From a virus, in IMG/VR virus record IMGVR_UViG_3300027126_000252, positions 1-53,733 of that record: a stretch of 53,733 nt of DNA; one strand, 5' to 3'. Each line of letters begins with the position of its first letter. Positions within the stretch are counted from its first letter, which is position 1. The position numbers and the translations under genes were made by a program. This document shows positions 23,474-46,997 of this stretch, piece after piece. The notes under the pieces were generated by a model. The model made no database searches and was not told the origin of the DNA. It saw only the letters and a list, made by a program, of their open reading frames with translations.

Positions 23474-23832
23474 AAGTATTTCTTCTTTCTCTCATCTAAA
23501 CTATTAGCTAACTTCTCAACTGTATTCTCATCTATATACTCTACTAAATCTTCTAAGACTTCTTTATTTGTTGTCATTATATAACTCACTATCGGCTTAG
23601 GCTCTTCTTCTGCATCCCCTATAACTATTGCCCTATGATGTGGCAACATATGAGTTATATTTAGTATCTCCCCTAATTTTAACCATACATTAAATACTTG
23701 GGTCTCCGTTTCTAATTCAGACTCACCCTCATAATATGCCCCACATAACTGTGTTATCATCCACTGAAATACATCTTCATCCACAACATCTTCTCTTACT
23801 GGTGGAATACCATCATCATCTTCTTCTCTCAT
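23470..23832 (-). CDS. Unknown acidic protein
   Basis: A 120-residue, strongly acidic protein starting MREEDDDGIPPVREDVVDED. It appears helical and contains HMLPHHRAIVIGDAEEEP with three His in a short stretch. The length and acidity recall small phage inhibitors or DNA mimics, but no family is recognised. It is coupled by four-base overlaps to the primase zinc-domain gene upstream and the Cys-cluster gene downstream. Confidence 0.5.
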   Translation of the reverse strand: MREEDDDGIPPVREDVVDEDVFQWMITQLCGAYYEGESELETETQVFNVWLKLGEILNITHMLPHHRAIVIGDAEEEPKPIVSYIMTTNKEVLEDLVEYIDENTVEKLANSLDERKKKYL

Positions 23833-24347
23833 GTTATACTCTCTAATTTAGAAAATAAATTTTTCCATTTACTGATATCATTCTTATTATTTACCATTAT
23901 TATATCATAAACCTCCCAAAATTTTAACACTACTTCTAATTCTACATTCCTATCTCTTGTAATAGACTTTAAACGATTACTTACCCTCTTCTCCCAGTCT
24001 ATATCTTCTTCTATATCATAAGGTTTATCATCCACCTTCTTCTCTTCATATTCTTTCCATGCTGATAAATTATATTTCTTCTCCAGCACCCTACAAGCAT
24101 CCCCATATTCCAACCCTTCTTTTTCCATCGTTGTTGAAATTACATCCCTTACCTTACCACAAGCAAAACAATACCATGTCTTTGTATTATGGTAATATCT
24201 AGCACTAGGCTTGGTTTCTATCCCACTACCATGTAAATCACATTTAAACTGCTGATCTGAACCGTTTAAATATACATCATAACCGTAATCTCTTAATAAC
24301 CTATCTAAAGGCACATTCTCTTTTAATCTGTCTGATCTTAAACTCAT
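23829..24347 (-). CDS. Primase zinc-binding domain protein (split DnaG, part 1)
   Basis: A 172-residue protein whose first 100 residues match the DnaG CHC2-type zinc-binding domain: KCDLHG with Cys36 and His39, KPSARYYHNTKTWYC with Cys60, and FACGK with Cys63, preceded by NVPLDRLLRDYGYD, which matches the start of DnaG (V-x-L-x-x-x-L-x-x-Y-G). The last 70 residues are charged and helical. No TOPRIM catalytic domain follows in this gene; the polymerase part is encoded separately at 46029-46712. The zinc domain recognises the priming site on DNA. The gene follows the replicative helicase by 31 bases and its start lies in a perfect hairpin that exposes AGGAG in the loop. Confidence 0.85.
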   Translation of the reverse strand: MSLRSDRLKENVPLDRLLRDYGYDVYLNGSDQQFKCDLHGSGIETKPSARYYHNTKTWYCFACGKVRDVISTTMEKEGLEYGDACRVLEKKYNLSAWKEYEEKKVDDKPYDIEEDIDWEKRVSNRLKSITRDRNVELEVVLKFWEVYDIIMVNNKNDISKWKNLFSKLESIT

Positions 24348-24368
24348 AGTAGTATCTCCTTACTACTA
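24345..24368 (-). promoter_or_regulatory. RBS hairpin at the primase zinc-domain gene
   Basis: On the minus strand the sequence reads TAGTAGTA, loop AGGAGA, TACTACTA, then TG of the start codon. The 8-base stem is perfect. The Shine-Dalgarno AGGAG is entirely in the six-base loop, eight bases before the ATG, and the A of the ATG is the last base of the stem. Stem folding should therefore affect initiation. Confidence 0.7.
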
Positions 24369-24378
24369 TATTATATTA

Positions 24379-25902
24379 TTATAATACATCACTCAACGGA
24401 TCATCTGCTAATTGATTGCCCGTACTCCTATTTACACTAATGATAGGCAAACTACTTGGACTATAAATCTTACCTGTGGGAAATGCTACATTCGATTGAA
24501 ATGTAGGAAATGGTGCTTGATCTCTACTCTTTAAACACTGATACTGAATACAATTCTGGGCTCTCATATCATCACCAAACCAATTCGCTATTACAACATC
24601 TGCTGATCTCTCAGCTTCATTTGCATACGACAAGTGAGTTAAGTTATATTGACCCTTATTCTTTAAAGCGTGCTGATAACCTTCACGATTTATCTGAAAT
24701 AAACACAACACAGGTATCCCTTGACCACGATTAAAGTTCATTGCTAATCTCTTTAAATCTCTAATCACTTCATTCAACTTTTCTGTGGTTGAACTATATC
24801 TATTACGACTAGATAACAATAAAGCATGGTCTACTACTATTAAATCAATCTTCTCTTTCTGTGCATAAATCTCAGCTTTAGCTTTTAAATCTTCTACTGT
24901 AAAATCAAAGCTATCCGGATTATCCCCCTCAAAGTGAATTGCCCCATATGTACCTTTATTCCTACCTAACTCTAAATCAGGTAATACATAATCAAAATAG
25001 AATGTATATTCCTCAGGACTTAAACACCCATTTCTCAATTTAACAGGATCAATACCAAAATCTACAGGACTTGAAGCATCTTGTAAACCTAATGCTATTC
25101 TTTGAGCCCGAAATTTAGGGTGCATAGAATGAATTGTATGAATTGCTCTACGGCATTGATCATAGTGCATTTCTAAACTGAAATATAAAGTACTTGTATT
25201 CACTACACTCATAACAGCTTGGTTATATACAAAGTTAATAGCACTCTTAGATTTCATATGACCTGTAAATCCTGCTAGGATATACAATTCTTTCTTCCTA
25301 AATCCACCTAAAGCATCATCAATAGGTTTAAGACCACTAATAGGTAATATCTCTCTACCACTAGCTTGTGCTTTTGTATATTGATCCTTTAAATCCCCAA
25401 TATCAGTCATAGCTTCACCACCGATACGAGAACCAAAAGTAGGGGTTAAAATATCAACTAGGTTATTTGATAAATAACGACTAGCATCACGAGGTCCTTT
25501 AAGGATTCTCTTTTTACCTTGTTCTTTTACCTCAACACCTGAACGAACGATGTCTTTTGCTTCATTCATTACTTGGAGTAATCTTTTTACTCTTACTGAT
25601 TCTACTTGTAATTCAAGTTCAGATACAAAGTCCCCTTTATAAATAGGATTTACAGCTGTTAAGACTCTTACTCTATCAGCTACTTCAATCTCCGTTTGGG
25701 ATTCAAAATGCTTAACAAGTGTATCTTGATCTGGTAAATGCCCATGATTTGCCATAAATGTTTTAACATAATCCCAAATTTTGCTATCTTCGGAACTGTC
25801 AAAAGCATAAATGCTATCTCTCAATACACTATAATTGACCAACATTTGATTAGGGTCATCCCCAACTCTTGTGTCTGGTATAACACTTCTTAAAATTCTC
25901 AT
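24379..25902 (-). CDS. DnaB-type replicative helicase
   Basis: A 507-residue RecA-fold (SF4) helicase that unwinds DNA at the fork. Residues 1-150 form the N-terminal helical domain. The Walker A loop is AGFTGHMKSKSA (210-221), where the usual last Gly of GxxxxGK[ST] is Met216; Lys217 and Ser218 are kept. FSLEM (241-245) contains the catalytic Glu, IDLIVVDH (352-359) is Walker B, and LCLFQINREG (399-408) is the sensor motif. The length and motif order fit DnaB or the helicase half of T7 gp4. It overlaps the loader-like gene upstream by four bases and precedes the primase zinc domain, so helicase and part of the primase are made together. Confidence 0.85.
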   Translation of the reverse strand: MRILRSVIPDTRVGDDPNQMLVNYSVLRDSIYAFDSSEDSKIWDYVKTFMANHGHLPDQDTLVKHFESQTEIEVADRVRVLTAVNPIYKGDFVSELELQVESVRVKRLLQVMNEAKDIVRSGVEVKEQGKKRILKGPRDASRYLSNNLVDILTPTFGSRIGGEAMTDIGDLKDQYTKAQASGREILPISGLKPIDDALGGFRKKELYILAGFTGHMKSKSAINFVYNQAVMSVVNTSTLYFSLEMHYDQCRRAIHTIHSMHPKFRAQRIALGLQDASSPVDFGIDPVKLRNGCLSPEEYTFYFDYVLPDLELGRNKGTYGAIHFEGDNPDSFDFTVEDLKAKAEIYAQKEKIDLIVVDHALLLSSRNRYSSTTEKLNEVIRDLKRLAMNFNRGQGIPVLCLFQINREGYQHALKNKGQYNLTHLSYANEAERSADVVIANWFGDDMRAQNCIQYQCLKSRDQAPFPTFQSNVAFPTGKIYSPSSLPIISVNRSTGNQLADDPLSDVL

Positions 25903-26594
25903 AACTGTGCTTTCTTAAAATCTAAACTTAAATTAGGTTTCTTTTTAGTTTGTGCAGTTGCAAAGGAATCAGCACCATTTACATTATAGATTTTCCACCC
26001 ATTTAAGGTATCTTCTAATGCACTAGACCATGCTAAATGACCCTCTTGTAAAGGCTTATTAGGTTCTTCTACTATCCATGTAGCTTTATTTAAATGCTGT
26101 CTTAATTCAATCGTTTCAATTAAAACCTCACTTGTAGCTGAATTTCTAGCCCTCTTTACACCTAATCTCACAATTAACAAGTCAGGTGCTTCAGCTAAAT
26201 CTTCTAATCCCCTTACATTAATATCTCTAATAAGATCAGGGTCTACTTTATTATCATCACTGACATTAGATAACCATGCACTAATTAGGGTAGCATCAGA
26301 TACTACTCGAATATTAAGAGTGGGGTTTCTCTCACTTAGAATAGCTGTTCTTAAATGAATAGCTAATTCTGTTTGACTTGCTATTAATCTAAGGTTTTCT
26401 TTCATCTTACCTATCATAGGACTTTTACGGTCTACAGGTACAGATGATAGGTCTTTCCATGCTTTTTCACATTGTAGTTTTAAAGCTTCTTTTAACATAC
26501 AAATACAAGGAACAGTCACAGGACTTCCCATATATACTTCTTCTGTTAAAGTAAACCCATATCCTTTACACTTAGGACAATTTTTATCTGCCAT
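25899..26594 (-). CDS. Helicase-loader-like protein with degenerate AAA+ fold and zinc knuckle
   Basis: The preferred start is ATG at 26594 (MADKNCPK), since GAGG lies upstream of it; an ATG at 26606 abuts GAGG directly and would add four residues. The protein has 231 residues. N-terminal CPKCKGYG and PCIC (Cys 6, 9, 30, 32) form a DnaJ-like zinc knuckle. The C-terminal half (EAPDLLIVRLGVKRARNS and then EVLIETIELRQHLNKATWIV) resembles the end of DnaC/DnaI-type AAA+ helicase loaders (DLLIIDDLG, then L-x-x-L-I-x-x-R), but the Walker B Asp pair is replaced by Arg-Leu and no Walker A is seen. The gene overlaps the helicase by ATGA, so the likely role is a non-ATPase loader or helicase-binding protein. 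Confidence in the fold is moderate. Confidence 0.5.
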   Translation of the reverse strand: MADKNCPKCKGYGFTLTEEVYMGSPVTVPCICMLKEALKLQCEKAWKDLSSVPVDRKSPMIGKMKENLRLIASQTELAIHLRTAILSERNPTLNIRVVSDATLISAWLSNVSDDNKVDPDLIRDINVRGLEDLAEAPDLLIVRLGVKRARNSATSEVLIETIELRQHLNKATWIVEEPNKPLQEGHLAWSSALEDTLNGWKIYNVNGADSFATAQTKKKPNLSLDFKKAQL

Positions 26595-29529
26595 TTTCTT
26601 TAGCATCCTCTACTAGATCATTAAAGATGTCTTTAAGTTCATTATCAGAAACACCTATTATCTTATCGGATTCTTCATCATTTTTGAGCCTTTTTCCTAA
26701 AACATTTTCTATTAAATCCATTTTATTATGTAAGGCTTTCATAACACGATCATCTACTGTCTTAGGACATACTAAATGATAACAATATACACGATCATGA
26801 ATACTACCGATACGGATCATTCTACCTATAATCTGTAAATAATCACCTGCACTCCAGGGACTATCATAAAAGATTGTTGCTTTAGCTAACTGTAAATTAA
26901 CACCTTCAGCTGCAGCCATTGTAATCAACACCACTCTTACATCAGATTTTTCATCTTGAAATGACTCTTGAGATTTCTTTCTCTCATCATCTTTTTCCCC
27001 ACCTGTAATTCTAACACACTTAATACCTTTAGCAGTAAGTTCCCTATCTAAGATATCAATCATCTTTCTAAAACGAGAGAAGATAATAACCTTTTCACCA
27101 TCAAGTTCTTCTTCGAGAAGTTCCATAAGAATTTCTAATTTACCACTATCACCTTTAACATCTACAAGTTCAGGATGGTTTACAATTTGTTGGCAATACA
27201 TAACAGCAGTAAGTTTAGTAACTTCTTTTTCTGTCATTTCACCTGTTGTAGGGTCATACTTTTCTAAGATACCACTTAAAGCTTCTTTATACTTAGAGAT
27301 TTGAACATCAGATAAAGGAGCTTCAATTCTTTTAGTAGTTAAAGGAGGTAATTCTTGGGCAACTTCATGTTTAGGTCTACCAATAAAATAGGGGTCAATT
27401 TTAATTCTGAAAGCTTCAATATCAGATTTTCTATGACCTACAACGAATTTAATTCTTTTTCTACCGATTTGTTTATCTACACAGATACAGTAATTAGACA
27501 TAAAGACATTTTTACTAGGCATAAGACCTGGTACGGTGACTCTATAAATTGCCCATGCTTCCATAAGTCTATTTTTAATAATAGTAGCAGACAAAGACCA
27601 TACTTTTTGAGCAGCACCTGAGAGGTGGGCACAGACTTGGTGAACTTGGGTAGTTTCATTTTTAAAGGCTGTTGCTTCATCAAAGATTTGAACATGATCT
27701 TTTAAATTTTGTAGTGTTTCAAAATCCATACAAGCAGTTCTATAACCCATAATAAGAACTTTAAGACCTGTATGGGCGAAGTAGTCATCATAGACCTTTT
27801 GTCTTTTCTTTTTATCACCACTTACAACAAAGCATTTAACACCATTAGTGAATTTATCAAATTCAGATGCCCATTGGTTTAATGCTGATTTAGTAGTCAT
27901 AATGACAGCTGATGTTTCGGGGTATTTATCCCATAGGTAGCTGAGGGCAGAAATTGCTTGTAAAGTGTTATGACTTGTAATTCCATTACCTACAAAAGAA
28001 TGTTCTGGGTGATCAACTTCTATATCAAACACTTCTTTTTCATCATGTGAAATAGAAACAATAGGATCATAGAAATAGTGATTATCAATCAAAGAATTTA
28101 CATCATTACTTTCTAGGTCTAAAGAAAGATAAATCTCTTTTAACTTTTTTAAGAAATCGAAAGTAGGGTTTCTTCTATTTTGTCGAATATGACCAAAAGT
28201 ATTATAAAAAGCAGTTCCGTATTTAGTAGATATACCTTGTCCTTTAAACCCATGTAAACCAACTTCGGAATAAATCTTGGTTCTAATTTCTTCGATATAT
28301 CCCTTAGAGAATGGAATGACATCAAAATTTGCATTCTTAGGAGTGTTTCTAAATCTCTCTATTTCATTAATCTTTCTTTTTGAAACAAGACCTATGGAAT
28401 CAAGGAAGAGAATGGCATTTTGACCATGTAAACCTAAATCCCAATAATCATTGGGATTATCTTTAACCTTTTTAATCTTTCTAATAGAAACAATCCCAAA
28501 AGAAAGTAAAGCTACCTGTATTTGTTTAAGCATTTTTTCAGAAGCCGATGAAACATGAATAGATCCATTTTTTACATAGGATTCACTATCTATGAAAGTT
28601 CTTAGGAAAGAAGCTAAAATTTGTTTTTTTGACTCTAGAACACAACTAGGAATCTCTTTGTCTTTAGATAGGCAACGAGGAATACCTAAAGATAATAAGA
28701 AACGATAAATATAGACACTAGAGATAGTATAGCCCCCATTAATATATCGAATAGGATATTCAAATAAAAAGTGAATTAGATATTCTAAATGTTCACACAC
28801 TTCGGGATTTAATTTTTTGTCTTGAGTGATACAAAAAAATTTCTCCTCAGTATGATTAAACCACCCTTCAGCTAAAAGGTATCCTAAGAACATAGCTAGT
28901 TCAGAATTTAAAGAACTAGGTGTTTTATATACTTTTTTATTGGGGTGTCCTTCTCCAGTATAAGAGATGTCAGTTTCTTTCCCAAAATCTTTGATAGAAC
29001 GGTCAAGGCAAACAAAATCCCCCTCTTTAAGATCGGAAAGTTTAACCCAATCTTCTTTACCATCGGATTGACGGACTAACACGGGATGAACTTGAGAACC
29101 TTCAATTTCATATCCTAAACGAGTTTTAATTTTGATAGTAGGTTTAACACCACCATAGTAAAAACTTTTAATAGGTCTCTCTTCACCCCTAACGATAACA
29201 TTCACAGGTTCGGATAAAGATGCAAAGGTATCTTGAATTTCAACTCCGGGGTTTAGACTTGAAATAGGTACTAATCCCTTATCAGTATTTACAAGAGTAT
29301 CTCCGACAACACACTTGCCAAGTCCCGTATCATCGCCGAGAACGAATCTAGGCATGGCTAAAAGGTGCATAATACCTTGAACTTGATAGTTTCTTAGTGT
29401 TAAGGGTCTACCGTTGGGCATAGTAGTTCTTAGAATTTTACTTGGGGGAGCTTTTAATTCTGTTCTTACTCGAATCTCTTTTAGCTTTGCTATTGTCTGT
29501 TGTAGCTTAGGGTCGTCTAAATAACTCAT
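26584..29529 (-). CDS. SNF2-type DNA helicase/ATPase interrupted by an intein
   Basis: A 981-residue precursor. Residues 1-72 and 522-981 are an SNF2-like superfamily 2 ATPase: Q-motif region TLRNYQVQGIMHLLAMP, Walker A DDTGLGK followed after the intein by TLQAI, Walker B FDEATAF (616-622), and the C-terminal motifs KVIIFSRF, AAAEGVNLQLA and QIIGRMIRIGS. Residues 73-521 (449 residues) are a self-splicing intein inserted between Lys and Thr of Walker A, giving a mature enzyme of about 532 residues. Such ATPases remodel DNA-protein complexes or help recombination and replication. A sigma70-like promoter lies just upstream and this is the first gene of the replication operon. The 3' end overlaps the loader-like gene. 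Confidence 0.9.
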   Translation of the reverse strand: MSYLDDPKLQQTIAKLKEIRVRTELKAPPSKILRTTMPNGRPLTLRNYQVQGIMHLLAMPRFVLGDDTGLGKCVVGDTLVNTDKGLVPISSLNPGVEIQDTFASLSEPVNVIVRGEERPIKSFYYGGVKPTIKIKTRLGYEIEGSQVHPVLVRQSDGKEDWVKLSDLKEGDFVCLDRSIKDFGKETDISYTGEGHPNKKVYKTPSSLNSELAMFLGYLLAEGWFNHTEEKFFCITQDKKLNPEVCEHLEYLIHFLFEYPIRYINGGYTISSVYIYRFLLSLGIPRCLSKDKEIPSCVLESKKQILASFLRTFIDSESYVKNGSIHVSSASEKMLKQIQVALLSFGIVSIRKIKKVKDNPNDYWDLGLHGQNAILFLDSIGLVSKRKINEIERFRNTPKNANFDVIPFSKGYIEEIRTKIYSEVGLHGFKGQGISTKYGTAFYNTFGHIRQNRRNPTFDFLKKLKEIYLSLDLESNDVNSLIDNHYFYDPIVSISHDEKEVFDIEVDHPEHSFVGNGITSHNTLQAISALSYLWDKYPETSAVIMTTKSALNQWASEFDKFTNGVKCFVVSGDKKKRQKVYDDYFAHTGLKVLIMGYRTACMDFETLQNLKDHVQIFDEATAFKNETTQVHQVCAHLSGAAQKVWSLSATIIKNRLMEAWAIYRVTVPGLMPSKNVFMSNYCICVDKQIGRKRIKFVVGHRKSDIEAFRIKIDPYFIGRPKHEVAQELPPLTTKRIEAPLSDVQISKYKEALSGILEKYDPTTGEMTEKEVTKLTAVMYCQQIVNHPELVDVKGDSGKLEILMELLEEELDGEKVIIFSRFRKMIDILDRELTAKGIKCVRITGGEKDDERKKSQESFQDEKSDVRVVLITMAAAEGVNLQLAKATIFYDSPWSAGDYLQIIGRMIRIGSIHDRVYCYHLVCPKTVDDRVMKALHNKMDLIENVLGKRLKNDEESDKIIGVSDNELKDIFNDLVEDAKENGR
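27967..29313 (-). mobile_element. Intein with LAGLIDADG homing endonuclease
   Basis: The 449-residue element starts with Cys (CVVGDTLV, splicing block A) and ends with HSFVGNGITSHN, followed by Thr as the +1 residue. SQVHPVLV is a block B-like segment with His. Two LAGLIDADG motifs are LGYLLAEGW and FLRTFIDSES, with acidic residues Glu and Asp in the catalytic positions, so the homing endonuclease may be active. A later basic part resembles a DNA-binding helix-turn-helix. Insertion within the Walker A codon pair is a typical conserved site for inteins. Confidence 0.9.
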
Positions 29530-29545
29530 AACCTGTCCTTAATTT

Positions 29546-29573
29546 AATATAGATGATACAAACACAGTTTCAA
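29546..29573 (-). promoter_or_regulatory. Sigma70-like promoter for the replication operon
   Basis: On the minus strand TTGAAA, a 16-base spacer and TATATT precede the SNF2 helicase gene by about 17 bases. Both boxes match the consensus at five of six positions. The spacer contains GTGTTTGTATCA, which resembles the block around 49421 and 50421 on the plus strand. Confidence 0.6.
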
Positions 29574-29591
29574 AAAGAAGGTGTAGTGAGA

Positions 29592-30053
29592 TTATCTTAT
29601 ATGATTTAGTTTAAAAATGGTATCTAAAAGATTAGAATAATTTACAGCACAGGGTATTGATGATTTCCGAATAATTTCTATAAACTGCTGGTATTGTAAA
29701 ATATTACCTTCGACCATAGCTATAATCTTATTATATAAGACCTTAGACCAAGCAGTATTAAGCCATAATATAAAATCTGTAATTTCTTTAGTGGCAAGAT
29801 AGTCTTCAAAATCTGTAATATCTTGTATCTTACTAGGCATATCCTCTGCATAGTGTAAAGAGATAGCAGAGACATTACGATATAAAGAAATCTTATCCCT
29901 ATAAATAAAAGGGTATTCCTTTATATAGAATTTCCTCATACCATGTTGCATAGTTCTAGGACTATTAAGTTCAGTAAAGCTATCTTCAAGTTTATGAAGA
30001 GCCATTTTAGTGGCAATATCTAGAACTCGATGAATGTCTTGGATATCAATCAT
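29592..30053 (-). CDS. Unknown helical protein
   Basis: A 153-residue, helical protein without recognised motif. It has a regular amphipathic pattern with Lys and Ile, and the segment TKEITDFILWLNTAWSKVLY. Its start overlaps the stop of the next gene upstream by four bases, so the two are a coupled pair divergent from the tail operon. No family is recognised. It may be an accessory tail or head-completion protein because of its position, but nothing in the sequence shows this. Confidence 0.5.
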   Translation of the reverse strand: MIDIQDIHRVLDIATKMALHKLEDSFTELNSPRTMQHGMRKFYIKEYPFIYRDKISLYRNVSAISLHYAEDMPSKIQDITDFEDYLATKEITDFILWLNTAWSKVLYNKIIAMVEGNILQYQQFIEIIRKSSIPCAVNYSNLLDTIFKLNHIR

Positions 30054-30550
30054 TTTTCTAATAGCCTTTTAAGGTTTTTAATTTCTTTTTCATATTTAGA
30101 TTGAACCCCATTAACTATTTCTTTAACCCTATCTACATCAGTACTATTAATAGCATCAGTAAATTTACCTTTATTAAGGTAAGCTAGGACAACACTATCA
30201 TTCATAGGGTCGAGAGCATGGATTTCATTTTTTAGGTCAATAGAGATAAGTTTACAAACTAAGTCATTTTTAGCTAATCTTAATTTATTACCATTGGAAT
30301 TAAGTTCGATAGCAGTAGTAACAAATTTAATAGTATTAGGTTTAGTAGCTAGGGATAATGCTTTTTTAAAATTTTTAGAGATAAGTGCATCTACGATAGC
30401 TGTTCCTGAGATATGGTCTGATTTTTCAATATCTTCATAGATATTAAGTAGAAAACTAATATTACTTTCATCTTCGAGAGATGTATCGGCATTTCTAGTA
30501 GGTAGGGTATGAGTGGAATAGCCACCCCAAGATTTTTCAGAACTGTTCAT
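30050..30550 (-). CDS. Unknown protein, first of a two-gene minus-strand pair
   Basis: A 166-residue protein with a polar, Ser/Thr-rich N-terminus (MNSSEKSWGGYSTHTLPTRN) followed by helices and a charged C-terminal coil (KYEKEIKNLKRLLEK). A good AAAGGAG lies about nine bases before the ATG. It starts the pair that is divergent from the tail tube gene and shares the 90-base control region with it. No domain is recognised. Confidence 0.5.
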   Translation of the reverse strand: MNSSEKSWGGYSTHTLPTRNADTSLEDESNISFLLNIYEDIEKSDHISGTAIVDALISKNFKKALSLATKPNTIKFVTTAIELNSNGNKLRLAKNDLVCKLISIDLKNEIHALDPMNDSVVLAYLNKGKFTDAINSTDVDRVKEIVNGVQSKYEKEIKNLKRLLEK

Positions 30551-30575
30551 AATAGGACTCCTTTATATATATATT

Positions 30576-30603
30576 TTGATAAAGTATCTATAAATGATAT
30601 AAC
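30576..30603 (+). promoter_or_regulatory. Sigma70-like promoter for the tail-core operon
   Basis: TTGATA, a 16-base spacer and TATAAC lie in the 90-base divergent gap before the tail tube gene. Both boxes match the consensus at five of six positions. AGGAG sites follow at about 30609 and 30626. This is the only clear plus-strand start point for the 14.5-kb operon. Confidence 0.6.
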
Positions 30604-30640
30604 TGTATAGGAGTCTTTTTTAATATAGGAGCAAAATAAA

Positions 30641-31450
30641 ATGCCTAGTTTAGATCATAACCCAAAAGCCGATAATAAAATGAGAGCTGCTGGGTCATCA
30701 GAGATATATAAGTATGGTATGTCCCCTGATTCTCGTGCTGTTATAAGTCAAAAGATTAGACTTTTGACCCCCAGTTATGGTGGTCAAGCAGGTTCTAGAT
30801 ACCAACTTGGAGTAGTCAGTTCTTTTTCTTATAGTGGTGGTTCTAGAAGTACCGAAATTGTTAGAGGCATCGGTTTTGGGGATATTATTGCTGATCGTGT
30901 ACCTGGAGTTACAGAACCTTTTACTGGAACTATTACCAGAACTTTGTTATATCTAAGCAATTTGTTTCAAGCATTAGGATTTGCAGGTGGTGTAGATGGA
31001 CCTGTTCGTTCAGCTGCACATACTCGCTGGCCCTTTGATATGGAAGAACAAATGGTATTTACATTTATGGCTGACGACCAAGTTAGTCATGGTAGTTTCA
31101 ATAACCCTGCTTTAGTAGAGATTGATTTTTCCGGTCAAGGTGTTACTAGTGTTGAAAAGAAAGCTGACGGGACCGTTTATCCACAAAAACATAAAGCATT
31201 AATCACTTTCTTTGAAGGATGCTGGCTAACAGGTGTTGAGCCTGTGGCTAGAGAAGCTGAAGGCAGTAAAATGGAAGAAAGTGCAAATGTAGATATTACT
31301 GATGTTCACGATTTATTCACTACCTATGGCGAATTCTTAGCAACAGGTGGGGTAAATAATAGTGTAAGAACTAAAAGTGCATCTATAGGTGCCAGAGTAG
31401 ACTTGAAAACAGTCGGTGTTACTAATGGAGTAACTAACCCAGCCCAATAA
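30641..31450 (+). CDS. Tail tube protein (probable)
   Basis: A 269-residue protein at the head of the tail-core operon. It is beta-rich with long Gly/Ser/Val segments (SSFSYSGGSRSTEIVRGIGF, then EPFTGTITRTLLYLSNLFQ), and the segment KHKALITFFEGCWLTGVEPV followed by NVDITDVHDLFTTYG resembles the closing strands of tail tube or Hcp-like folds, which end in a strand with a functional residue for stacking. Its place, directly before two chaperone-sized genes and the tape measure, is that of the tail tube in many myoviruses. The sheath gene is not in this window. Function is inferred from position and fold impression. Confidence 0.65.
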   Translation: MPSLDHNPKADNKMRAAGSSEIYKYGMSPDSRAVISQKIRLLTPSYGGQAGSRYQLGVVSSFSYSGGSRSTEIVRGIGFGDIIADRVPGVTEPFTGTITRTLLYLSNLFQALGFAGGVDGPVRSAAHTRWPFDMEEQMVFTFMADDQVSHGSFNNPALVEIDFSGQGVTSVEKKADGTVYPQKHKALITFFEGCWLTGVEPVAREAEGSKMEESANVDITDVHDLFTTYGEFLATGGVNNSVRTKSASIGARVDLKTVGVTNGVTNPAQ

Positions 31451-31487
31451 CAATATAGGGTGACGACCCTTTTAACAAACGGAGATT

Positions 31488-32111
31488 ATGTATATGTCTA
31501 TATCATTAAATCAATTAAAATCAGCTATGAATAAAATCACACAAGCTGGTTACCTCGAAAGAAAAGTCACCTTAGGTGAAAATACTCTCATTATTAGAAC
31601 TTTGACTCCTAGAGAAGAATCAGAACTCCAAAAAATCATATCCGATTTATCAAGAGATGAAAATATGACTACTCTAGAATTTGTAGACCTAGTCCGTAAA
31701 GAAACTTTAAGTCGTGCTATCGTTCAAATTGACGACCTCGATATGAGAAATGTTGATATGATTGAAACGGATGAAGTCTTAGCTAATGGGGTTAAAGTTA
31801 AAGTATCTAGACAACAAGCTATTTCTGAAATGATTGAATTTCTACCTAGACTCCTTTTAAGTAAAGTCTTTGAAGAAATGAGTCGTTTAACAGAAGAAGT
31901 TGAAGAACGAACTAATAAACTATTAAAAATAGATGTCGTAGATATAGATGCTGAAATTGAAAACCTTGAAAAAAGAATTAAACAACTTGAATTTCAAAAA
32001 GAAACAAGAAAACTCGACCAAGCTACCGTAAAAAATACATCTAATGCCCTCTCTATTACTGGAGATGAAACATTAGCTGAACAATTAAAGAAGGTAGATT
32101 CATCGGTATGA
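31488..32111 (+). CDS. Tail assembly chaperone-position protein 1
   Basis: A 207-residue protein between tail tube and tape measure, the usual place for tail assembly chaperones. It starts MYMSISLNQLKSAMNKITQA; the second Met (ATG at 31494) has better spacing to the GGAG at 31481, so the real start may be there. The N-terminal part has a beta-rich segment (RKVTLGENTLIIRTLTPREE) typical of chaperones that hold tape measure proteins, and the C-terminal part is a coiled coil (ENLEKRIKQLEFQKETRKLD). The next gene follows after four bases, suggesting translational coupling. A programmed frameshift was not found. Confidence 0.5.
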   Translation: MYMSISLNQLKSAMNKITQAGYLERKVTLGENTLIIRTLTPREESELQKIISDLSRDENMTTLEFVDLVRKETLSRAIVQIDDLDMRNVDMIETDEVLANGVKVKVSRQQAISEMIEFLPRLLLSKVFEEMSRLTEEVEERTNKLLKIDVVDIDAEIENLEKRIKQLEFQKETRKLDQATVKNTSNALSITGDETLAEQLKKVDSSV

Positions 32112-32115
32112 GTAT

Positions 32116-33189: not shown

Positions 33190-33195
33190 GATAAA

Positions 33196-36990: not shown

Positions 36991-36992
36991 TT

Positions 36993-37595: not shown

Positions 37596-37598
37596 TTT

Positions 37599-38624: not shown

Positions 38625-41600
38625 ATGACTATCAGTATTAAAGGTGGTACAAGTGCTACTACCACAGGTAAAATACTCGATAGACCTTATGTAGGTCTAT
38701 GGAAACCTAACTTCAGAAAAACTCTTTCTTATGCCCCAGATGCTCTTGTTTATATAAATGGGGATACATCACTTGTAGGTTGTAAAGATTGTAACAACAG
38801 AATAGACTTTCAACCATATATCACTCAAGTTTCATGTGGTGCAGGTGTTGAGGCTAGTAGTGGTGATGCTAATATCAGTTTCTCTATTCCTAAACATCAT
38901 GGCGACAGTATCTTTAAAGATGGTGCTTTTCTTATCACACCAGGTCTTGAAGTGAATATTTATATTCGTGGTGTATTTGATGTTAAAGATTTAAACAATG
39001 ATGAGATAGTAGAATATACTGACGAGAAATATAACCTTAAAGACCTTAAAATGAAACCTTACTACCCTGTATTTCATGGTGTAGTAACAAGTATATCCTA
39101 TGCTTATGGTGGTGGTTTTTATAGTGGGTCATTCTCTTGTAATAATTTGTTATATTTTTGGCAGTATCAGTCTATTACGACTAATGGAGCAGCCTTTGGA
39201 GCTAAACCTAGTGAGTCTGCTGGTTCTGTTCAAATGACAGGACATAAATTTACAGGTATGACTCCACACCAAATTATTTACAGCCTATTTAGAGATACAG
39301 GTGGCTCTGCACAAGGTGTTATTGGGGGTATTAACAAGAAATCTAATGTAAATGCTCGTGTAGGCAAACAAGATGCTTACAGTTTAAGTCTTAGATACTG
39401 GGAACGAAGATTCTCTCAAGGTATGTATGGTTTAAGGATGCATGGTGCTTCAGGTCGTTTATTTTCTAGTCTTGAACAAGTTTATTATGGAAATACAAAT
39501 GGCAGAGAAACAAATAAAGTAGCATCTGCAAATACTGGAGTTAAAAACAAAAAACAATCTAAGACAAAAACACCTAATCCTTTAGGTAATAATGAAGCTT
39601 TTCTTAGAAGAGCAAACATCATAAAAGTAGATGGGGATGGTACAAGTTCTCGTATATTTTCAAGAGGAGTTGATATTCAAATAGCAACTCAAAGTGAAAG
39701 TGGCACATCCCAAACCACTGCTGATATGCAAGCATATATCCTAGATATAGGTAATTTAGCTAATATAAATATGTGGGAAGCTTCTTATGAAACTAAACAA
39801 CAAATAGCGACTACCGTTGCTGATAAAGTTAATTTTGAATTTTATCAAGATGTAGATGGGGACTTAGTCTTTAAACCACCTCTATATAATCTTAACACTA
39901 AAGCTAGTCGTGTTTATGTGCTTAAACCGGAAGACATAGTAAGTATGAATTTTTCTGTTAAAGAACCTCAATATACTTATGCTGTTGTTAAAGGCACTTT
40001 AACAAAAAATTTAAATGGTGTTTTAGATGATGACTTTATTACACCTAAATCTACTTATATTGATTATAGGCTCGTAGCTAAATATGGGTGGAGACCTTTA
40101 GAAATAGACAGTAATGTGCATACCAATACAACATCAGCTTTCTATTATGCTGCAGCTGAACTTGATCGACAAAACCAAGAAGCTGAAACTGCTTCTGTTA
40201 CAATTACCCTTAGACCTGAATTAAAGCCTGGTTATCCTGTATATATAGAACATATAGATTGTTTTTATTATGTAACATCTGTAAGTCATGATTTTACATA
40301 TGGGTCTTCTTGTAGTACTACTATTGAAATTAAAGCTAGAAGAAAACGATTTATGCCACCTGGTGATATAAATGTTTCATATAAAGATTCACCTGAAAAG
40401 GCTGTTGATCTTATTAATACCAATAAGGGAGCTAAATACCTCAAAAAGAAAGAAAAAACAGTAAGTACCTCAGGTATAGAAGGAGAAGAAATTATTAAAG
40501 TTACAGGCTTCCCTAATGTTGTTATGGGTATTGATATGACTCGTATCGATCCTAATTTCTTTTTTATGGGGACTGAGACTCTTGAAATAGAAAAACCCTA
40601 TTTTAAGCAAATGATTATTGCTGAGGCTATAAGTTTAGGGGTTTTACAATTAGATGAAAATAGTTCTAGCGACCCTTTTAGTGCTAAGGCTAAGTTTGTA
40701 GTCTTTGATGTTGTAGAAAATGGAAGACCTAAACAAATAGGTACTATATCAGCTAATGATATAACAAGTGGACAAAAGAGCATCGGAGATATTATTCCTC
40801 AGTATCAAAAATCCTTAGATAAGATAGCTGGAAGTAAATTAAAACCGGAACAAAAAGCTGAAAACAGAGAAGCCGCCGAGTTAAAAAGAGACAAAGCTTT
40901 TAATGACTTAACAAATGTAGATGGAAATACAAATAATGGAGGACAGCAAGAAAATGTTACTTTTATATATAGTGAAGAATATGAAAAAACTCTTTTAAAC
41001 CCTGAAGATGGTACAAAGCCATCCCTAACCTTATTAGATTTAATTAACATTATGAGGGTAAATAAACAAAGAGCGAATGAAGTATCTTCAGGAATGGGGA
41101 GTACTGCTAATATCTTAGAATTACTTTCTAACAAGAAAAATGCTTTCTCCCCCCATGTGCCAGGCTACTTTAGGTATTTTAGTTGTTCTCATCCAGATCC
41201 TAAAATGCAAGGTGCTACTGAAATTGATTTTATTGAAGATAGTGGTGAGATAAAAAGTGTTGGTGAGAGACTTATAAAAACTTCTGAAGAAAGATTTAAT
41301 GGAAATAAGGTCAATATGGTAGTTCCTGACCCTACTTCAACTGATGGGGATTTAGTCACTTTTACTCAAGCATATCCCGTAGCTGGTCTTAAAGTAAAAA
41401 ATTATTTTACAAACCAAATAGATGTTATTCCTACTAATGAAATTACATCTCTTACTTTTCAAGAACACCCAGTCATACTAAAAACAGGTAAAATTGATCC
41501 CAAAAAAGATAAAGGAGAGTTATGGGTCGGACTACCTCCTGACTTGTACAGAGACAACAAGGATATGATCAAAAGACAATTTATATATGACTTTATAAAG

Positions 41601-42938
41601 AATGGTCTCAAAATAAACATAAAAAATGCTACTGCAGAGACCCTATTCCCTAGAATAATACCAGACTCAATCCAGACCAACCCAGATATAAAAGATAAGG
41701 TCAAAGCTGTTATTAAAACACCAGGAACTCTATTTAAAGACAACCCTTATGTAAAAGATTTTGAAAGTAAAAGTTATGACACTACAAACCCCTTAGAAAT
41801 ATTACTAGAATCTGCTGCGGGTAATTTATGGCAAGCTATTGAAGAAGACCACCAATCATACCTTAAGAAACAGAAACCTATTACAGAACAGAATGAAGGT
41901 GAATTTAATACAACTAAAGTAGAGTATCAAAATTTATCTAAAACTATATTTGCATTAACCGAATTAGTAATCCCCCCTATAAATAAGCCTAACTCAACAC
42001 TAACAGCTAAAGAAAAAAAACCCCAATTCAAAGAAAAAGGAAAGAGGAGTATGGTACTACCTGTATCTGATGATGAGGGTTATGAAGTTTATGGGTTTCA
42101 GGCATATGGGAGAGGTCTAGATCTTAAAGTAGGTGGTGGGTATATGTCTTTATTACAACAAGATTACACTAGAGTTCTTACCTCAGCACAATCCGAAAAT
42201 ATTTATAAGATACTAAAGAAAGATCTGACTGATCAAGAACGACTTACTGGAGTAAAAGCAGAATTAAAGGGTGTATCGGAAACTCTAAATAATATGGCTC
42301 CAGAAGAAAGAAACATTATTATCAATTCTACGGGTATTCTTTTAAATAAGGAAACTGATGATCCTAAAATTGAAATTGTAGAAGCATTTGTAACTCAATT
42401 TGCAAACAGAATCGTAAGTAATCAAGAAATAGATAAATTTGGTAAAGAGGATACTAATAGATTTGTTGTTGCTGAGAATATACCAAAAGCATTAAACCAA
42501 ATAGCTCCTGGCGGTGTTAAAAATAGTGGGTCTGTATGTCAATGTAGAGGCTATGATTCAGACTTAGACTTAGAAAACCTAGATGTTTATAATACCCCTT
42601 ATGTTAAATTAGACTTTAGTGGGTCAGAACCGGATACCTTCTCTCAGAAGCTACATGATGTGATGGTAGAAAAAGGGACAATATGGAAACAAGAACAAGC
42701 AAGTTATCGTGGTTCTGATACCACAGAAAATGGTGCAGTTTTAAGAAACATAGTAGATACAGTTATAGGTGCGGTAGATAATATTAAAAATACTGTACTT
42801 AGTGTTGATGAGAAGTTCATAGCTATTACAGAAACATACACAAGCACACTAGATGCTATTGACCAAAAAGAAAAAAAAGCACTAGAAAATAATGCATCTA
42901 AAAATGTCTTATTCACTGAGGATAAAAAAGAAAAATGA
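38625..42938 (+). CDS. Very large baseplate hub protein
   Basis: A 1437-residue protein. The first 600 residues resemble a gp27/gpD-like hub: NFRKTLSYAPDALVYINGD, a CKDCNN pair (Cys53, Cys56), an ISFSIPKHHG strand, MTPHQIIYSLFRDTGG, and the closing ASVTITLRPELKPGYPVYIE with CFYYVTSVSHDFTYGSSCST, which is the typical hub end motif (Y-V-x-x-V-x-H). The next 800 residues are unusual for hubs and are mostly helical or charged, ending in a Cys-rich piece (CQCRG near 1305) and a coiled coil. No lysozyme motif is visible. It carries the tail axis above the spike, whose gene starts in a four-base overlap with this one. The hub call rests on the first 600 residues and on position. Confidence 0.7.
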   Translation: MTISIKGGTSATTTGKILDRPYVGLWKPNFRKTLSYAPDALVYINGDTSLVGCKDCNNRIDFQPYITQVSCGAGVEASSGDANISFSIPKHHGDSIFKDGAFLITPGLEVNIYIRGVFDVKDLNNDEIVEYTDEKYNLKDLKMKPYYPVFHGVVTSISYAYGGGFYSGSFSCNNLLYFWQYQSITTNGAAFGAKPSESAGSVQMTGHKFTGMTPHQIIYSLFRDTGGSAQGVIGGINKKSNVNARVGKQDAYSLSLRYWERRFSQGMYGLRMHGASGRLFSSLEQVYYGNTNGRETNKVASANTGVKNKKQSKTKTPNPLGNNEAFLRRANIIKVDGDGTSSRIFSRGVDIQIATQSESGTSQTTADMQAYILDIGNLANINMWEASYETKQQIATTVADKVNFEFYQDVDGDLVFKPPLYNLNTKASRVYVLKPEDIVSMNFSVKEPQYTYAVVKGTLTKNLNGVLDDDFITPKSTYIDYRLVAKYGWRPLEIDSNVHTNTTSAFYYAAAELDRQNQEAETASVTITLRPELKPGYPVYIEHIDCFYYVTSVSHDFTYGSSCSTTIEIKARRKRFMPPGDINVSYKDSPEKAVDLINTNKGAKYLKKKEKTVSTSGIEGEEIIKVTGFPNVVMGIDMTRIDPNFFFMGTETLEIEKPYFKQMIIAEAISLGVLQLDENSSSDPFSAKAKFVVFDVVENGRPKQIGTISANDITSGQKSIGDIIPQYQKSLDKIAGSKLKPEQKAENREAAELKRDKAFNDLTNVDGNTNNGGQQENVTFIYSEEYEKTLLNPEDGTKPSLTLLDLINIMRVNKQRANEVSSGMGSTANILELLSNKKNAFSPHVPGYFRYFSCSHPDPKMQGATEIDFIEDSGEIKSVGERLIKTSEERFNGNKVNMVVPDPTSTDGDLVTFTQAYPVAGLKVKNYFTNQIDVIPTNEITSLTFQEHPVILKTGKIDPKKDKGELWVGLPPDLYRDNKDMIKRQFIYDFIKNGLKINIKNATAETLFPRIIPDSIQTNPDIKDKVKAVIKTPGTLFKDNPYVKDFESKSYDTTNPLEILLESAAGNLWQAIEEDHQSYLKKQKPITEQNEGEFNTTKVEYQNLSKTIFALTELVIPPINKPNSTLTAKEKKPQFKEKGKRSMVLPVSDDEGYEVYGFQAYGRGLDLKVGGGYMSLLQQDYTRVLTSAQSENIYKILKKDLTDQERLTGVKAELKGVSETLNNMAPEERNIIINSTGILLNKETDDPKIEIVEAFVTQFANRIVSNQEIDKFGKEDTNRFVVAENIPKALNQIAPGGVKNSGSVCQCRGYDSDLDLENLDVYNTPYVKLDFSGSEPDTFSQKLHDVMVEKGTIWKQEQASYRGSDTTENGAVLRNIVDTVIGAVDNIKNTVLSVDEKFIAITETYTSTLDAIDQKEKKALENNASKNVLFTEDKKEK

Positions 42939-45169
42939 TGAAACTAAACGAAGGGCAAATGAAAGCCAACCTCAATAATAGCACCCTTAGACCTAATAAC
43001 CCTAGCAAAGGTTGGTCTGCCCTCGCTTTAGGCACTGCTAAAGTTCAAATGATTAACTGGGAAGAACTTAGATGCACGATTAAAGTCCTTGACGGTGAAT
43101 TTGAAGAACCTATATATGACGGTGTTGAACTCCTATTCCCCAGCATCGGATCAAGACACTTTCTCGGTGCTATCCCTGAAGTCGGTGATATGTGTGTTGT
43201 TGGTTGGTTTGCTACTGATACTAAAGGTGCTGCAGGCAGTAAAAGACCTGCTATCCTATCCTGGCTCCCTAAAGCATACTATCTAGGTCAAGAATGGATT
43301 CCTACCCAATCCTTTAATGAAGAGGAAGGTCTCCTAAATACCCCTAAAGATAGAAAACATTTAGATGGGGTTTCTAATCGTATTCGTCATAAAATGAGAC
43401 ATTATGAACCTGGTAATATAGGTGCTTCTTCATCTCAAGGCTCAGATTTAGTTCTTGATGAAGGTGTTTTATTATCTAATAGAAGAGCTAATGAAATTAG
43501 ATTAAGGGATCAAGACCAAGCTCTTATTGTCCGTTCCTTACAACAATTCCATGCTATGGGTGGCGCCCGTATATATGGGGGTATGGTTCAAAGAGATGCC
43601 CGTATTATCCCTTATGACTTAATCTCAGATGGTCGTTTATGGGATGGACCTACTCAAGTTAAACCAGATGGGTCTCCTATAACTCAAGATGAATTACCCT
43701 TTGATTCTTTAAGAGGTACTTATCAACCACACCCCTTATTTAGAAAAACTACTTTAAATGGTAAATCAGCATTTGAACAAGATGTAAATACTACTCTTAA
43801 TAGAGCTATTGACCCATATACTTTAATGTATAAAGCTAACCTTATAGATGAAAATCTAAGGTCTACATCAGAAATAGATTTTAATTCCTATGGTGGTAAA
43901 GCAATATTAAGATATGATGCCGATGGTCAAAAAACCTTTAACCAAGCTACTACTGAATATCGTATAGAACTAAACCATACCACAGATGGATTATTACCAG
44001 TAACAGAACAAACTGATGGTATGGATATAGACCGTATACCTGAAAATAGAGGTGCATCAGATAAATCACCTTATATAGAATGGGTATTAGGTACTGTGGT
44101 AGGTAATGATGCTTTTACTGAAGGTGGTAAAAGCCTATATGGTAAACCCCTATATGCTAACGACTTAGGGATTATAGATGATGCTACAGGTCTAGATATA
44201 GAAAATCATTTAGCAACACTATTTAGAATAAAGCCTATTATAGGTGAGGATAGTCCTAGTTATGTAGGTTTTACTAAAGGTGGTGCTTTTAGGGGATATA
44301 TAGGGGCAAAAGAAGCAGTAGGGGCAAGATTAAAAGTAGAAGGTGGTTTAGGATTAGAAATCTTAGGTAATACAAATATTCTATATGGGAGTACAGGATT
44401 TACTTTAAATGGTGATGGTGCATTAGACATAAGAAGTAATAGGAATAGCATATATGTGTTTGCTGGAGGGACATTTAAAGGAAATGGTGAAGGGGATAGT
44501 ATTGTGTTAGAGGGTAAAGGGAATATATCTTTAAAGTCAAGTTCTGTTATCAATTTAGATGCCCCTACGGTTAAATTAAAAAATGCTAGTTCTTTATCCT
44601 TTTCAACACAAAGTGATTTTGCAATCAACAGTGGTGAATCAGTAAGTATAAAGACGAATACAATGAAACAAACTGTTATGGGGGGTCAAAGTTCAGCATT
44701 TAGTTCTATTAACCCTATAGTGCCTCCTAGAGATACTAAAATTTTAGGTGGTCCTGGTATAGTAGACCAAACAACATATACAGCAGGTGTTAAATTAACC
44801 ACAGCTTTAGCAAACTTAACAGATACTACTACAATACCTACGGGTGCTATTACACAAACAGTAGGTGTAGGTGCTATTACTCAAACAGCAAGTGGTAATA
44901 GTAGTATTATATCACCTGCTGGGGTTAATATTACAGCTGCAGTAGGTGTAGTTAGTTTAACTGCTTTAGCAGGTATAGCTACTATTACAGGTAATGCTGG
45001 TGTAACTATTTCATCAGTAGGTCCTGTTGCTATAAGAGGTACAACTATTACCTTATCTAGTCCAGGTGCTTCCGTAGGTCCTATTATGTGTGGAAGTGAT
45101 ATAAATCCATTAACAGGTACTCCCTTTTTAGCTACAATGATCCCAAGAGGTCAAAACCTTACACCATAG
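42935..45169 (+). CDS. Baseplate spike protein with OB-fold and beta-helix
   Basis: A 744-residue protein. Residues 45-140 have a gpV/gp5-like OB domain (TAKVQMINWEELRCTIKVLD, IPEVGDMCVVGWF, KRPAILSWLP), as in central spikes. The C-terminal 250 residues are a beta-helix of short repeats (TNILYGSTGFTLNGDGALDI, NISLKSSSVINLDAPTVKLK and on to ITAAVGVVSLTALAGIATIT), then a small GPIMCGSDINPLTGTPF tip. This is the needle that pierces the outer membrane. It begins in a four-base overlap with the hub gene, using one of two adjacent ATG codons, and ends in an 11-base convergent overlap with the next gene. Confidence 0.8.
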   Translation: MMKLNEGQMKANLNNSTLRPNNPSKGWSALALGTAKVQMINWEELRCTIKVLDGEFEEPIYDGVELLFPSIGSRHFLGAIPEVGDMCVVGWFATDTKGAAGSKRPAILSWLPKAYYLGQEWIPTQSFNEEEGLLNTPKDRKHLDGVSNRIRHKMRHYEPGNIGASSSQGSDLVLDEGVLLSNRRANEIRLRDQDQALIVRSLQQFHAMGGARIYGGMVQRDARIIPYDLISDGRLWDGPTQVKPDGSPITQDELPFDSLRGTYQPHPLFRKTTLNGKSAFEQDVNTTLNRAIDPYTLMYKANLIDENLRSTSEIDFNSYGGKAILRYDADGQKTFNQATTEYRIELNHTTDGLLPVTEQTDGMDIDRIPENRGASDKSPYIEWVLGTVVGNDAFTEGGKSLYGKPLYANDLGIIDDATGLDIENHLATLFRIKPIIGEDSPSYVGFTKGGAFRGYIGAKEAVGARLKVEGGLGLEILGNTNILYGSTGFTLNGDGALDIRSNRNSIYVFAGGTFKGNGEGDSIVLEGKGNISLKSSSVINLDAPTVKLKNASSLSFSTQSDFAINSGESVSIKTNTMKQTVMGGQSSAFSSINPIVPPRDTKILGGPGIVDQTTYTAGVKLTTALANLTDTTTIPTGAITQTVGVGAITQTASGNSSIISPAGVNITAAVGVVSLTALAGIATITGNAGVTISSVGPVAIRGTTITLSSPGASVGPIMCGSDINPLTGTPFLATMIPRGQNLTP

Positions 45170-46028
45170 GCTTCAAATTTCTATCTACATATTTATTTTT
45201 ATATAACCAATACATTTGCATAGCTAAGGCTGCAGGTAATAAAATATTCCAACCTATTTTTAAAGATTTAAGAATCATACCGCCTGGCAAATCAGGTATC
45301 AGTAAAGATAATAGATAACCCACACCAGATTCTGGTAAAGATTCTATTAACTCTTCCCAAGAGATCATACCTAACATACCTCTTACAATATCTATTATAT
45401 CCCAAGAGATTTCTGTTACAGTAGTCCATATCTTCCAATAGATATATGCTTTAATAGGTACTGACAAGGCTTTTAAAATATGACTACGACTTAATAAATC
45501 ATCTAGAAACTTTGCAAAAGGTTTAACTTTCTTACCTATACCCTTTAATATATTCTGAACAGGTAAAGGCAATTTATCTACTACATAATGTATAACATTA
45601 GTAAAGGTAGGCATATCATTATATGCTTTAATAAAAAAGTGAACGGCATCAAAATCTTTATCTAGTTTAGATAACATACTCTTTAATTGATTTTCACCTA
45701 GTTCTAAAAAAGCACCAAATTTCTTATCAAACTCTATTATAGCTTCCCATGTGTTTATAGATGTTATCCCTAACATCTCTTTAAACTTAGTCCAATATTC
45801 AGGCATCTTTTGAAATGCTTCATATAACTGCTTTATCTTAGATGCTAAACCACCAAAACCTGCTGTTTTAACAATATATTTACCAAATACCTCAAGGGTA
45901 TTTATATTTAAATCTCTTCTTACTAAACTAGCACCCCTTACCATAGGTGTTGACTTTATTGCTATGTAACAAGCATATCTTATTCTATTTCTAATCATAA
46001 CTATGTATCTCCTCATATAAGAGGACAA
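45159..46028 (-). CDS. Unknown membrane-associated protein
   Basis: A 289-residue protein with a basic N-terminus (MSSYMRRYIVMIRNRIRYAC) and amphipathic helices. Hydrophobic stretches near 190-215 (YIYWKIWTTVTEISWDIIDI) and 235-275 (GVGYLLSLLIPDLPGGMIL, SLKIGWNILLPAALAMQMYW) could sit in a membrane. No family is recognised. Its start is next to the stop of the TOPRIM primase gene (no gap), so the two are probably on one transcript. It resembles the other membrane proteins of this window only in general composition. An ejected virion protein is possible but unproven. Confidence 0.5.
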   Translation of the reverse strand: MSSYMRRYIVMIRNRIRYACYIAIKSTPMVRGASLVRRDLNINTLEVFGKYIVKTAGFGGLASKIKQLYEAFQKMPEYWTKFKEMLGITSINTWEAIIEFDKKFGAFLELGENQLKSMLSKLDKDFDAVHFFIKAYNDMPTFTNVIHYVVDKLPLPVQNILKGIGKKVKPFAKFLDDLLSRSHILKALSVPIKAYIYWKIWTTVTEISWDIIDIVRGMLGMISWEELIESLPESGVGYLLSLLIPDLPGGMILKSLKIGWNILLPAALAMQMYWLYKNKYVDRNLKPMV

Positions 46029-46712
46029 CTACATAAAATATTTATTCAAACCCTCAATACCTTCCCTAGTCCATAAATCATTAGGGTCTTTACCCCTATA
46101 TTTACACTCTACTGACCTAATACCTATCTTAGCTAATTTTCTCACTAAATCAGCTGATTTAGCTTTACCTGTTTCATCATTATCATAACAAATGTAAATT
46201 GATGACATAGGTGTATAAAATCTCTCAAATAACTTGAAGGTGTTTTCATCCATACCTGCTCTCATAGTAGAACAAACTACATGAGGTGGTCTAATTGCTT
46301 TTTGTAAAGCTACTAAATCAAATACACCTTCTACTATATAAACATCATCGCCATTCCATAATCCTTCAACTACTTTATGGGCATTGATAAGAGTAGGTAG
46401 CCATTGACTACGGTCTAGCATATACTTGTGTACTTTTTTATTACCTTCTGAGTCCCATGTTCTAGCTTCAAAGCCTATAAGTTTATTTCTAGGGCAATGT
46501 AAAGGGATAATAAGGTGATCCTTTAATCTTTCACCTTTACTACCAAAAGAACTTACAAATCTTTGACAAGGGATAGTAATATTCACTTTATTCGGGTCAT
46601 AGGTATTAAAGATAATACCTGTATTTTCATCTACACCACGAGAAACTAGATAAGAATAGTGTGTAGAACTTACAAACATTGTAGATAATAGGTCTTCGAG
46701 CCAATCAAACAT
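46029..46712 (-). CDS. Primase catalytic (TOPRIM) protein (split DnaG, part 2)
   Basis: A 227-residue protein that matches the RNA-polymerase part of DnaG. YLVSRGVDENT (21-31) matches the start of the core, DHLIIPLHCPRNKLIGFEAR (65-84) is the basic motif, HKYML (95-99) follows, VYIVEGVFDLVALQKA (124-139) carries the catalytic EG..D, and IYICYDNDETGKA (172-184) carries the metal-binding DND. GKDPNDLW (207-214) closes the domain. No zinc-binding or helicase-binding part is present; the zinc domain is a separate gene at 23829-24347. It makes RNA primers. The start codon lies in a perfect 10-base hairpin with the Shine-Dalgarno in the loop, as at the other primase gene. Confidence 0.85.
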   Translation of the reverse strand: MFDWLEDLLSTMFVSSTHYSYLVSRGVDENTGIIFNTYDPNKVNITIPCQRFVSSFGSKGERLKDHLIIPLHCPRNKLIGFEARTWDSEGNKKVHKYMLDRSQWLPTLINAHKVVEGLWNGDDVYIVEGVFDLVALQKAIRPPHVVCSTMRAGMDENTFKLFERFYTPMSSIYICYDNDETGKAKSADLVRKLAKIGIRSVECKYRGKDPNDLWTREGIEGLNKYFM

Positions 46713-46932: not shown

Positions 46933-46938
46933 TTTATA

Positions 46939-46989: not shown

Positions 46990-46997
46990 CATTAAAA

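Follow-up and report, generated by a model that had tools for sequence, protein, structure and literature searches.

The phage represented by IMG/VR virus record IMGVR_UViG_3300027126_000252 encodes what is likely a two-protein DnaG-type primase, whose halves would work in trans and would most likely be assembled on the phage's own DnaB-type helicase. The zinc-binding domain (ZBD) and the RNA-polymerase domain (RPD) lie in separate genes with intact zinc and active-site residues, the two co-occur, no fused primase accompanies them, and their predicted folds are those of a DnaG zinc domain and a DnaG-type RPD. The window analysed here is the whole 53,733-bp record, a linear metagenomic fragment of a larger genome. 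Its relevant features are collected in Table 1.

Table 1. Coordinates of the primase genes, their neighbours and other features in the window
Feature	Coordinates	Strand	Description
Purine gene	15106..16170	minus	flanks the methyltransferase array
Methyltransferase array	16196..20011	minus	four paralogous adenine-specific DNA methyltransferase genes in tandem
Purine gene	20096..21082	plus	flanks the methyltransferase array
141-aa protein	23048..23473	minus	four cysteines (C90, C96, C104, C114); most conserved neighbour of the ZBD gene
120-aa protein	23470..23832	minus	acidic, no family; overlaps the ZBD stop by 4 bases
ZBD protein gene	23829..24347	minus	172 aa, CHC2 zinc-binding
DnaB-like replicative helicase	24379..25902	minus	507 aa; DnaB_C E=3e-19; phrog_19 E=3e-31
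235-aa protein	25899..26606	minus	N-terminal cysteines in CxxC and CxC motifs; lies upstream of, and overlaps by 4 bases, the helicase gene
SNF2-family helicase with an intein carrying a LAGLIDADG domain	26584..29529	minus	same cluster as the ZBD and helicase genes
289-aa protein	45159..46028	minus	immediately downstream of the RPD gene; no family match in Pfam, PHROG or NCBIfam
RPD protein gene	46029..46712	minus	227 aa, DnaG-type RNA-polymerase/TOPRIM
82-aa protein	46744..46992	minus	directly precedes the RPD gene; conserved MAMMRTG start; no known family
425-aa protein	48105..49382	minus	TPKPIE repeat run (18-bp DNA repeats 48266-48409); weak DUF2325 match

Two halves of one DnaG model

The first-pass annotation had described two complete genes about 22 kb apart, each with its own start site and each lacking the domain of the other. 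All of this is borne out. The coordinates given for both genes are correct, the strand, which had been left out, is minus in both cases, and the measured gap is 21.7 kb (24348-46028), with a block of plus-strand genes in between. A Shine-Dalgarno-like AAGGAG precedes the ATG of the ZBD gene, and AGGAGG precedes that of the RPD gene. Against TIGR01391 (dnaG, NCBIfam), the ZBD protein matches positions 42-120 and the RPD protein positions 192-356 (E=1.8e-15), and the two therefore cover non-overlapping parts of a single DnaG model. Profile searches likewise placed them on different parts of PDB entry 2au3, the Aquifex DnaG.

The ZBD protein matches PF01807 at E=2.3e-8, exceeding the cut-off, and the ligands of its CHC2 zinc ribbon (C36, H39, C60 and C63) are invariant in 48 of 48 ZBDs, over which many residues flanking the ribbon are also kept. 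Its AlphaFold model (pLDDT 84.1) contains the zinc ribbon, a helix hairpin at residues 69-91 (helices 69-77 and 81-91), a low-confidence stretch at 100-113 that is predicted to be a flexible or disordered linker, and a confidently modelled C-terminal three-helix bundle at 118-171. Foldseek aligned the zinc domain with that of Bst DnaG (1d0q; E=9.3e-5, TMt 0.75). The bundle has no family or named relative in Pfam or the PDB; inside it lies the conserved pair W144-E145, the tryptophan being kept in 47 of the 48 relatives.

The RPD protein, which has no zinc domain, matches Toprim_2 in Pfam (E=3.2e-11), positions 151-331 of the DNA primase family phrog_47 (E=2.6e-22) and, as a profile, 2au3 (E=3.3e-16); its DNAG_N match is sub-threshold (E=0.0083, 16.7 bits against a cut-off of 26). 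It carries the motifs E128, D132, D177-N-D179 and K208-D209-P210. Alignment of 20 RPDs taken from genomes that have both halves, with relatives down to about 30% identity, revealed that E128, D132, D177, D179, K208, D209 and P210 are invariant, as are R25, R84 and W104. K92, which like R25 and R84 belongs to the N-terminal lobe, is kept in 18 of 20, and so is W4 in the conserved W-L helix at the start of the RPD. The catalytic roles proposed for these residues follow from what is established for DnaG and from their alignment with solved structures. The AlphaFold model of the RPD (pLDDT 90.8) ends at the last TOPRIM helix, and its top Foldseek matches are the DnaG RPDs of Aquifex, B. subtilis, S. 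aureus, M. tuberculosis and E. coli, with T7 gp4 and T4 gp61 also among the matches. Bacterial DnaG (Aquifex 2au3, E. coli 1eqn) aligns with both halves, catalytic residues included, but is encoded by one gene, whereas the window has two genes and neither product gives a Pfam or NCBIfam match to the C-terminal DnaB-binding domain of DnaG.

The shortness of the RPD relative to bacterial RPDs, its DNAG_N score below the cut-off and the position of its gene among structural or unknown genes, away from the helicase, might suggest that the TOPRIM protein is a repair or RNA-processing enzyme, with host DnaG priming phage replication. This reading is very improbable, as primase RPDs match the model at E values of 1e-10 to 1e-7 against values above 0.02 for small TOPRIM proteins and RecR, with the profile searches also favouring primase RPDs. 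In addition, the N-terminal lobe retains R25, R84 and, in 18 of 20 proteins, K92, and a ZBD is always present in the large genomes.

Distribution of the separate halves in related phages

Profile searches for a full-length DnaG, as advised by the first-pass annotation, found none in the window, and a DNAG_N search of the record returned nothing above threshold. Since the virus record that makes up the window is incomplete, relatives were also searched for a complete primase, which the annotation had named among the findings that would refute its reading. Record-wide searches used PF01807, phrog_47 and the RPD profile. No complete primase gene was found in any record: searches with phrog_47, PF01807 or PF08275 yielded no full-length DnaG, and a fused primase gene is absent from every searched record of the lineage. 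Run with one and the same model, the controls each gave one fused match (T4 8-362, P-SSM2 13-353, Atu_ph07 31-353 and RaK2 47-356), and LR745208.1 gave two half matches. A Prim-Pol (archaeo-eukaryotic primase) model found nothing in 14 records, with its own controls positive.

Scans of viral contigs, confirmed by tblastn, revealed 27 RPD and 18 ZBD loci with single sequences and 24 RPD and 67 ZBD loci with profiles. More than 20 records (about 20 distinct phages, with LR745208.1 and the window among them) contain both halves, in every case as separate genes. The 12 searched records with a length of about 249 kb or more (G010, G014, G018, G020, G021, G030, G034, G036, G043, G044, G045 and G052; 249-536 kb) all carry a single ZBD and a single RPD but no fused primase; their halves lie 21-238 kb apart and occur in both relative orientations. 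Five further records measure 200-230 kb; one of them (G048) has both halves, and only the ZBD was seen in the other four (G032, G042, G047 and G053), which may be fragments. Over all records, the separation, taken as a linear distance within the record, has its minimum at 12.2 kb (G003, G004 and G005, opposite strands). It is about 20-22 kb in the window, G001 and G002 (same strand) and in G020 (opposite strands), 27 kb in G027, 54-69 kb in G017, G028, G030 and G031, 87-160 kb in G034, G018, G044, G036, G052, G021, G010 and G043, 184-190 kb in G045 and G048, and 238 kb in G014. In three records (G016, G017 and G019) the RPD appeared to be fused to an extra domain within an open frame of 474 aa; the start-to-stop ORF encodes 220 aa, and there is no such fusion.

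The origin of the window as a metagenomic fragment could invite the view that an assembly artefact or a local rearrangement has split a fused gene. The chance of this is close to negligible, because many independently assembled contigs carry the same split with varying spacing and orientation; each gene also has a complete start and no remnant of the other half. Retention of the split across a family of very large phages therefore points to a stable design and not to a broken gene. Over 20 genomes, the distance matrices of the ZBD and RPD are correlated (Mantel r=0.85, p=1e-4), and the two trees have 9 of 17 bipartitions in common. This fits co-inheritance of the halves and is no proof of contact, because common descent alone predicts such a correlation. 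The lineage is not close in sequence to annotated phages, strong full-length tblastn matches being confined to LR745208.1. A search of genome contigs turned up a single near relative (L158), which lies in a bacterial MAG, and three distant matches.

Separate primase halves are already known in giant phages (Iyer et al. 2021; phage G). In one sentence that gives no mechanism, Iyer et al. (2021) stated that a stand-alone primase-type zinc ribbon tends to accompany the DnaG-like primases of group 2 jumbo phages (PMC7824862); the lineage of the window (relatives of 249-536 kb) resembles that group in having separate zinc-ribbon and DnaG-like TOPRIM genes. The group-2-type phages P-SSM2, RaK2 and Atu_ph07, like T4, have one fused primase, so this sentence may mean other members. 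The layout seen in the window is also found in a cultured phage, Bacillus phage G, where gp229 is a 210-aa ZBD protein annotated as 'DNA primase', three genes from the DNA helicase gp226, and gp419, a 235-aa 'DnaG-like DNA primase', lies 154 kb away on the other strand. Both are remote from the lineage (12.8 and 23.5 bits, respectively, against its profiles), and phage G differs in the tail of the ZBD and in having K-G-T-D in place of the K-D-P-N/G motif. In the T5-like Aeromonas phage AhSzq-1, a ZBD-only 'DNA primase' ORF is separate from the RPD frame, but the two are adjacent rather than distant. Short CHC2 'DNA primase' proteins of other phages, e.g., Mycobacterium phage Aeneas and Enterococcus phage ECP3, are present in BFVD, and Bacillus phage Goe3 (KY368640.1, 83942-85015 and 111154-111372) combines a fused primase with a second, stand-alone CHC2 zinc protein. 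Literature searches found no paper on a split DnaG primase as such, and primase is absent from the main text of Al-Shayeb et al. 2020. The new elements are the conservation across the lineage, the ZBD tail and the four-cysteine neighbour gene.

A primosome that would assemble in trans

The closest guide to how such halves might cooperate is the T4 primosome, in which gp61 contacts the helicase twice, through HIM1 and HIM2, on successive gp41 dimers (PMC10359460). HIM1 is a helix-turn-helix following the zinc ribbon (74-97) and is not conserved in sequence, HIM2 is a C-terminal helix after TOPRIM (327-341), and the gp61 ZBD and RPD make separate contacts with the helicase (PMC10359460). The interdomain linker (97-115) has been proposed as a measuring tape, although the pentamer was still the main product of four out of five linker mutants and even the shortest linker had only a small effect (PMC10359460). 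As these mutants are mostly normal, a primase cut at the linker could work if its halves find each other. Like T4, the window combines a predicted helix hairpin after the zinc ribbon, a minimal RPD without the bacterial C-terminal domain, and a DnaB-type helicase, and helices 69-77 and 81-91 of its ZBD are predicted at the position of HIM1. Unlike T4, whose gp61 is one fused ZBD-RPD gene of about 340 aa, it has two genes, an extra C-terminal bundle on the ZBD and no helix at the HIM2 position: the RPD segment KDPND...NKYFM-end aligns by motif with KDVND... of T4, which continues to HIM2 at 327-341, whereas the RPD of the window ends earlier. A further arrangement is seen in T7 gp4 and Twinkle, where primase is fused to helicase; the helicase of the window is a separate gene.

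Of the readings of the two genes, pairing in trans has the best support, because the halves are co-conserved with intact zinc and catalytic residues and no complete primase was found. Briefly, the ZBD protein would recognise the site of priming in the lagging-strand template and keep hold of the 5′ end of the growing primer, the RPD protein, from its separate gene, would synthesise the RNA primer, and the two would meet on the hexamer of the DnaB-type helicase. With no covalent ZBD-RPD linker, the disordered residues that follow the zinc domain run instead into the three-helix bundle, which may replace the covalent link as a module docking on either the RPD or the helicase. The finding named in the title of Corn et al. 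2005 is reportedly cross-talk of primase subunits in trans. Several points weigh against this reading. Binding of ZBD to RPD and primer synthesis are predictions from sequence, neither half has a recognisable C-terminal helicase-binding domain of DnaG, the RPD stops before the position of the T4 helix HIM2, the extra bundle of the ZBD has no known relative, the distance correlation would arise from shared descent alone, and the four ZBD-only records of 200-230 kb, possibly fragments, show no partner.

The first-pass annotation had offered as an alternative that the zinc protein guides another enzyme, which is less likely. In its broader form, with the RPD alone as the primase and the ZBD repurposed as a helicase cofactor, a regulator or such a guide, this is distinctly unlikely. 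It would accommodate the extra C-terminal bundle, the ZBD-only records, the placement of the ZBD gene beside the helicase in several genomes and its frequent placement beside the four-cysteine protein rather than the RPD gene. It sits poorly with the retention of all zinc ligands and many flanking residues in 48 of 48 ZBDs and with the presence of both halves in every large record searched, and in T4 and T7 the ZBD serves in priming-site recognition and 5′-end coordination (PMC10359460). The 141-aa four-cysteine protein, possibly metal- or Fe-S-binding, might itself join the ZBD and RPD in a multi-subunit primase with the ZBD bundle as the assembly module; this extension is unlikely, and if true, subunit exchange on the helicase, not a covalent linker, would control primer length and start.

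For the two-protein primase preferred here, the consequences concern the linker above all. In fused primases the ZBD-RPD linker is proposed to help measure primer length, shortening it in T4 having only a subtle effect (PMC10359460). A natural linker-free primase, kept in a deep lineage of huge phages, would make the role of the linker in primer length directly testable, and the halves of a two-component primase can be supplied separately. The split would also explain phage annotations with two 'DNA primase' genes or with seemingly truncated primases.

Neighbouring genes and other features of the window

The helicase gene lies directly upstream of the ZBD gene with a spacing of 31 bp and adjoins it in L028-L033, L044 and L045. 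The first-pass annotation had placed only the zinc part next to the helicase. This holds in the window but not in G016, G017 and G019, where the helicase is about 5 kb from the RPD gene, and the linkage of primase to helicase is therefore not fixed. The 235-aa protein adjoins the helicase in 13 related loci and has no significant family match in Pfam or PHROG; from its position, it is possibly a helicase loader. The SNF2 gene matches SNF2-rel_dom (E=2.4e-27), Helicase_C (E=2.1e-24), LAGLIDADG_3 (4.4e-13) and Intein_splicing (2.7e-11), and the counterpart ORFs seen in relatives measure about 535-540 aa, consistent with no intein.

On the other side of the ZBD gene, the 120-aa protein is kept beside the ZBD in relatives (12 distinct rows). 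In 32 of the 50 distinct ZBD loci that offer enough sequence, the 141-aa protein is encoded on the strand of the ZBD gene and no more than 1.5 kb downstream of it; its cysteines are invariant in 18 of 18. It has no PDB, Pfam or PHROG family and is a candidate third primosome component or metal protein. Around the RPD gene, the 82-aa protein is found upstream in most near relatives, in some inside a longer open frame, and is absent beside distant RPDs and beside L003/L049. The 289-aa protein has relatives next to the RPD only among the closest phages.

Elsewhere, the window contains baseplate wedge genes, the repeat-bearing 425-aa protein listed in Table 1 and the methyltransferase array, whose four genes overlap one another in turn by a few bases and are, over parts of their length, about 84-86% identical in DNA sequence. 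Of the purine genes beside the array, the one at 15106..16170 encodes a 354-aa adenylosuccinate synthetase homologue, scoring 276 bits with PurA and 134 bits with PurZ, both below cut-off, and the one at 20096..21082 an IMPDH/GMP-reductase homologue; these genes could bear on DNA base modification.
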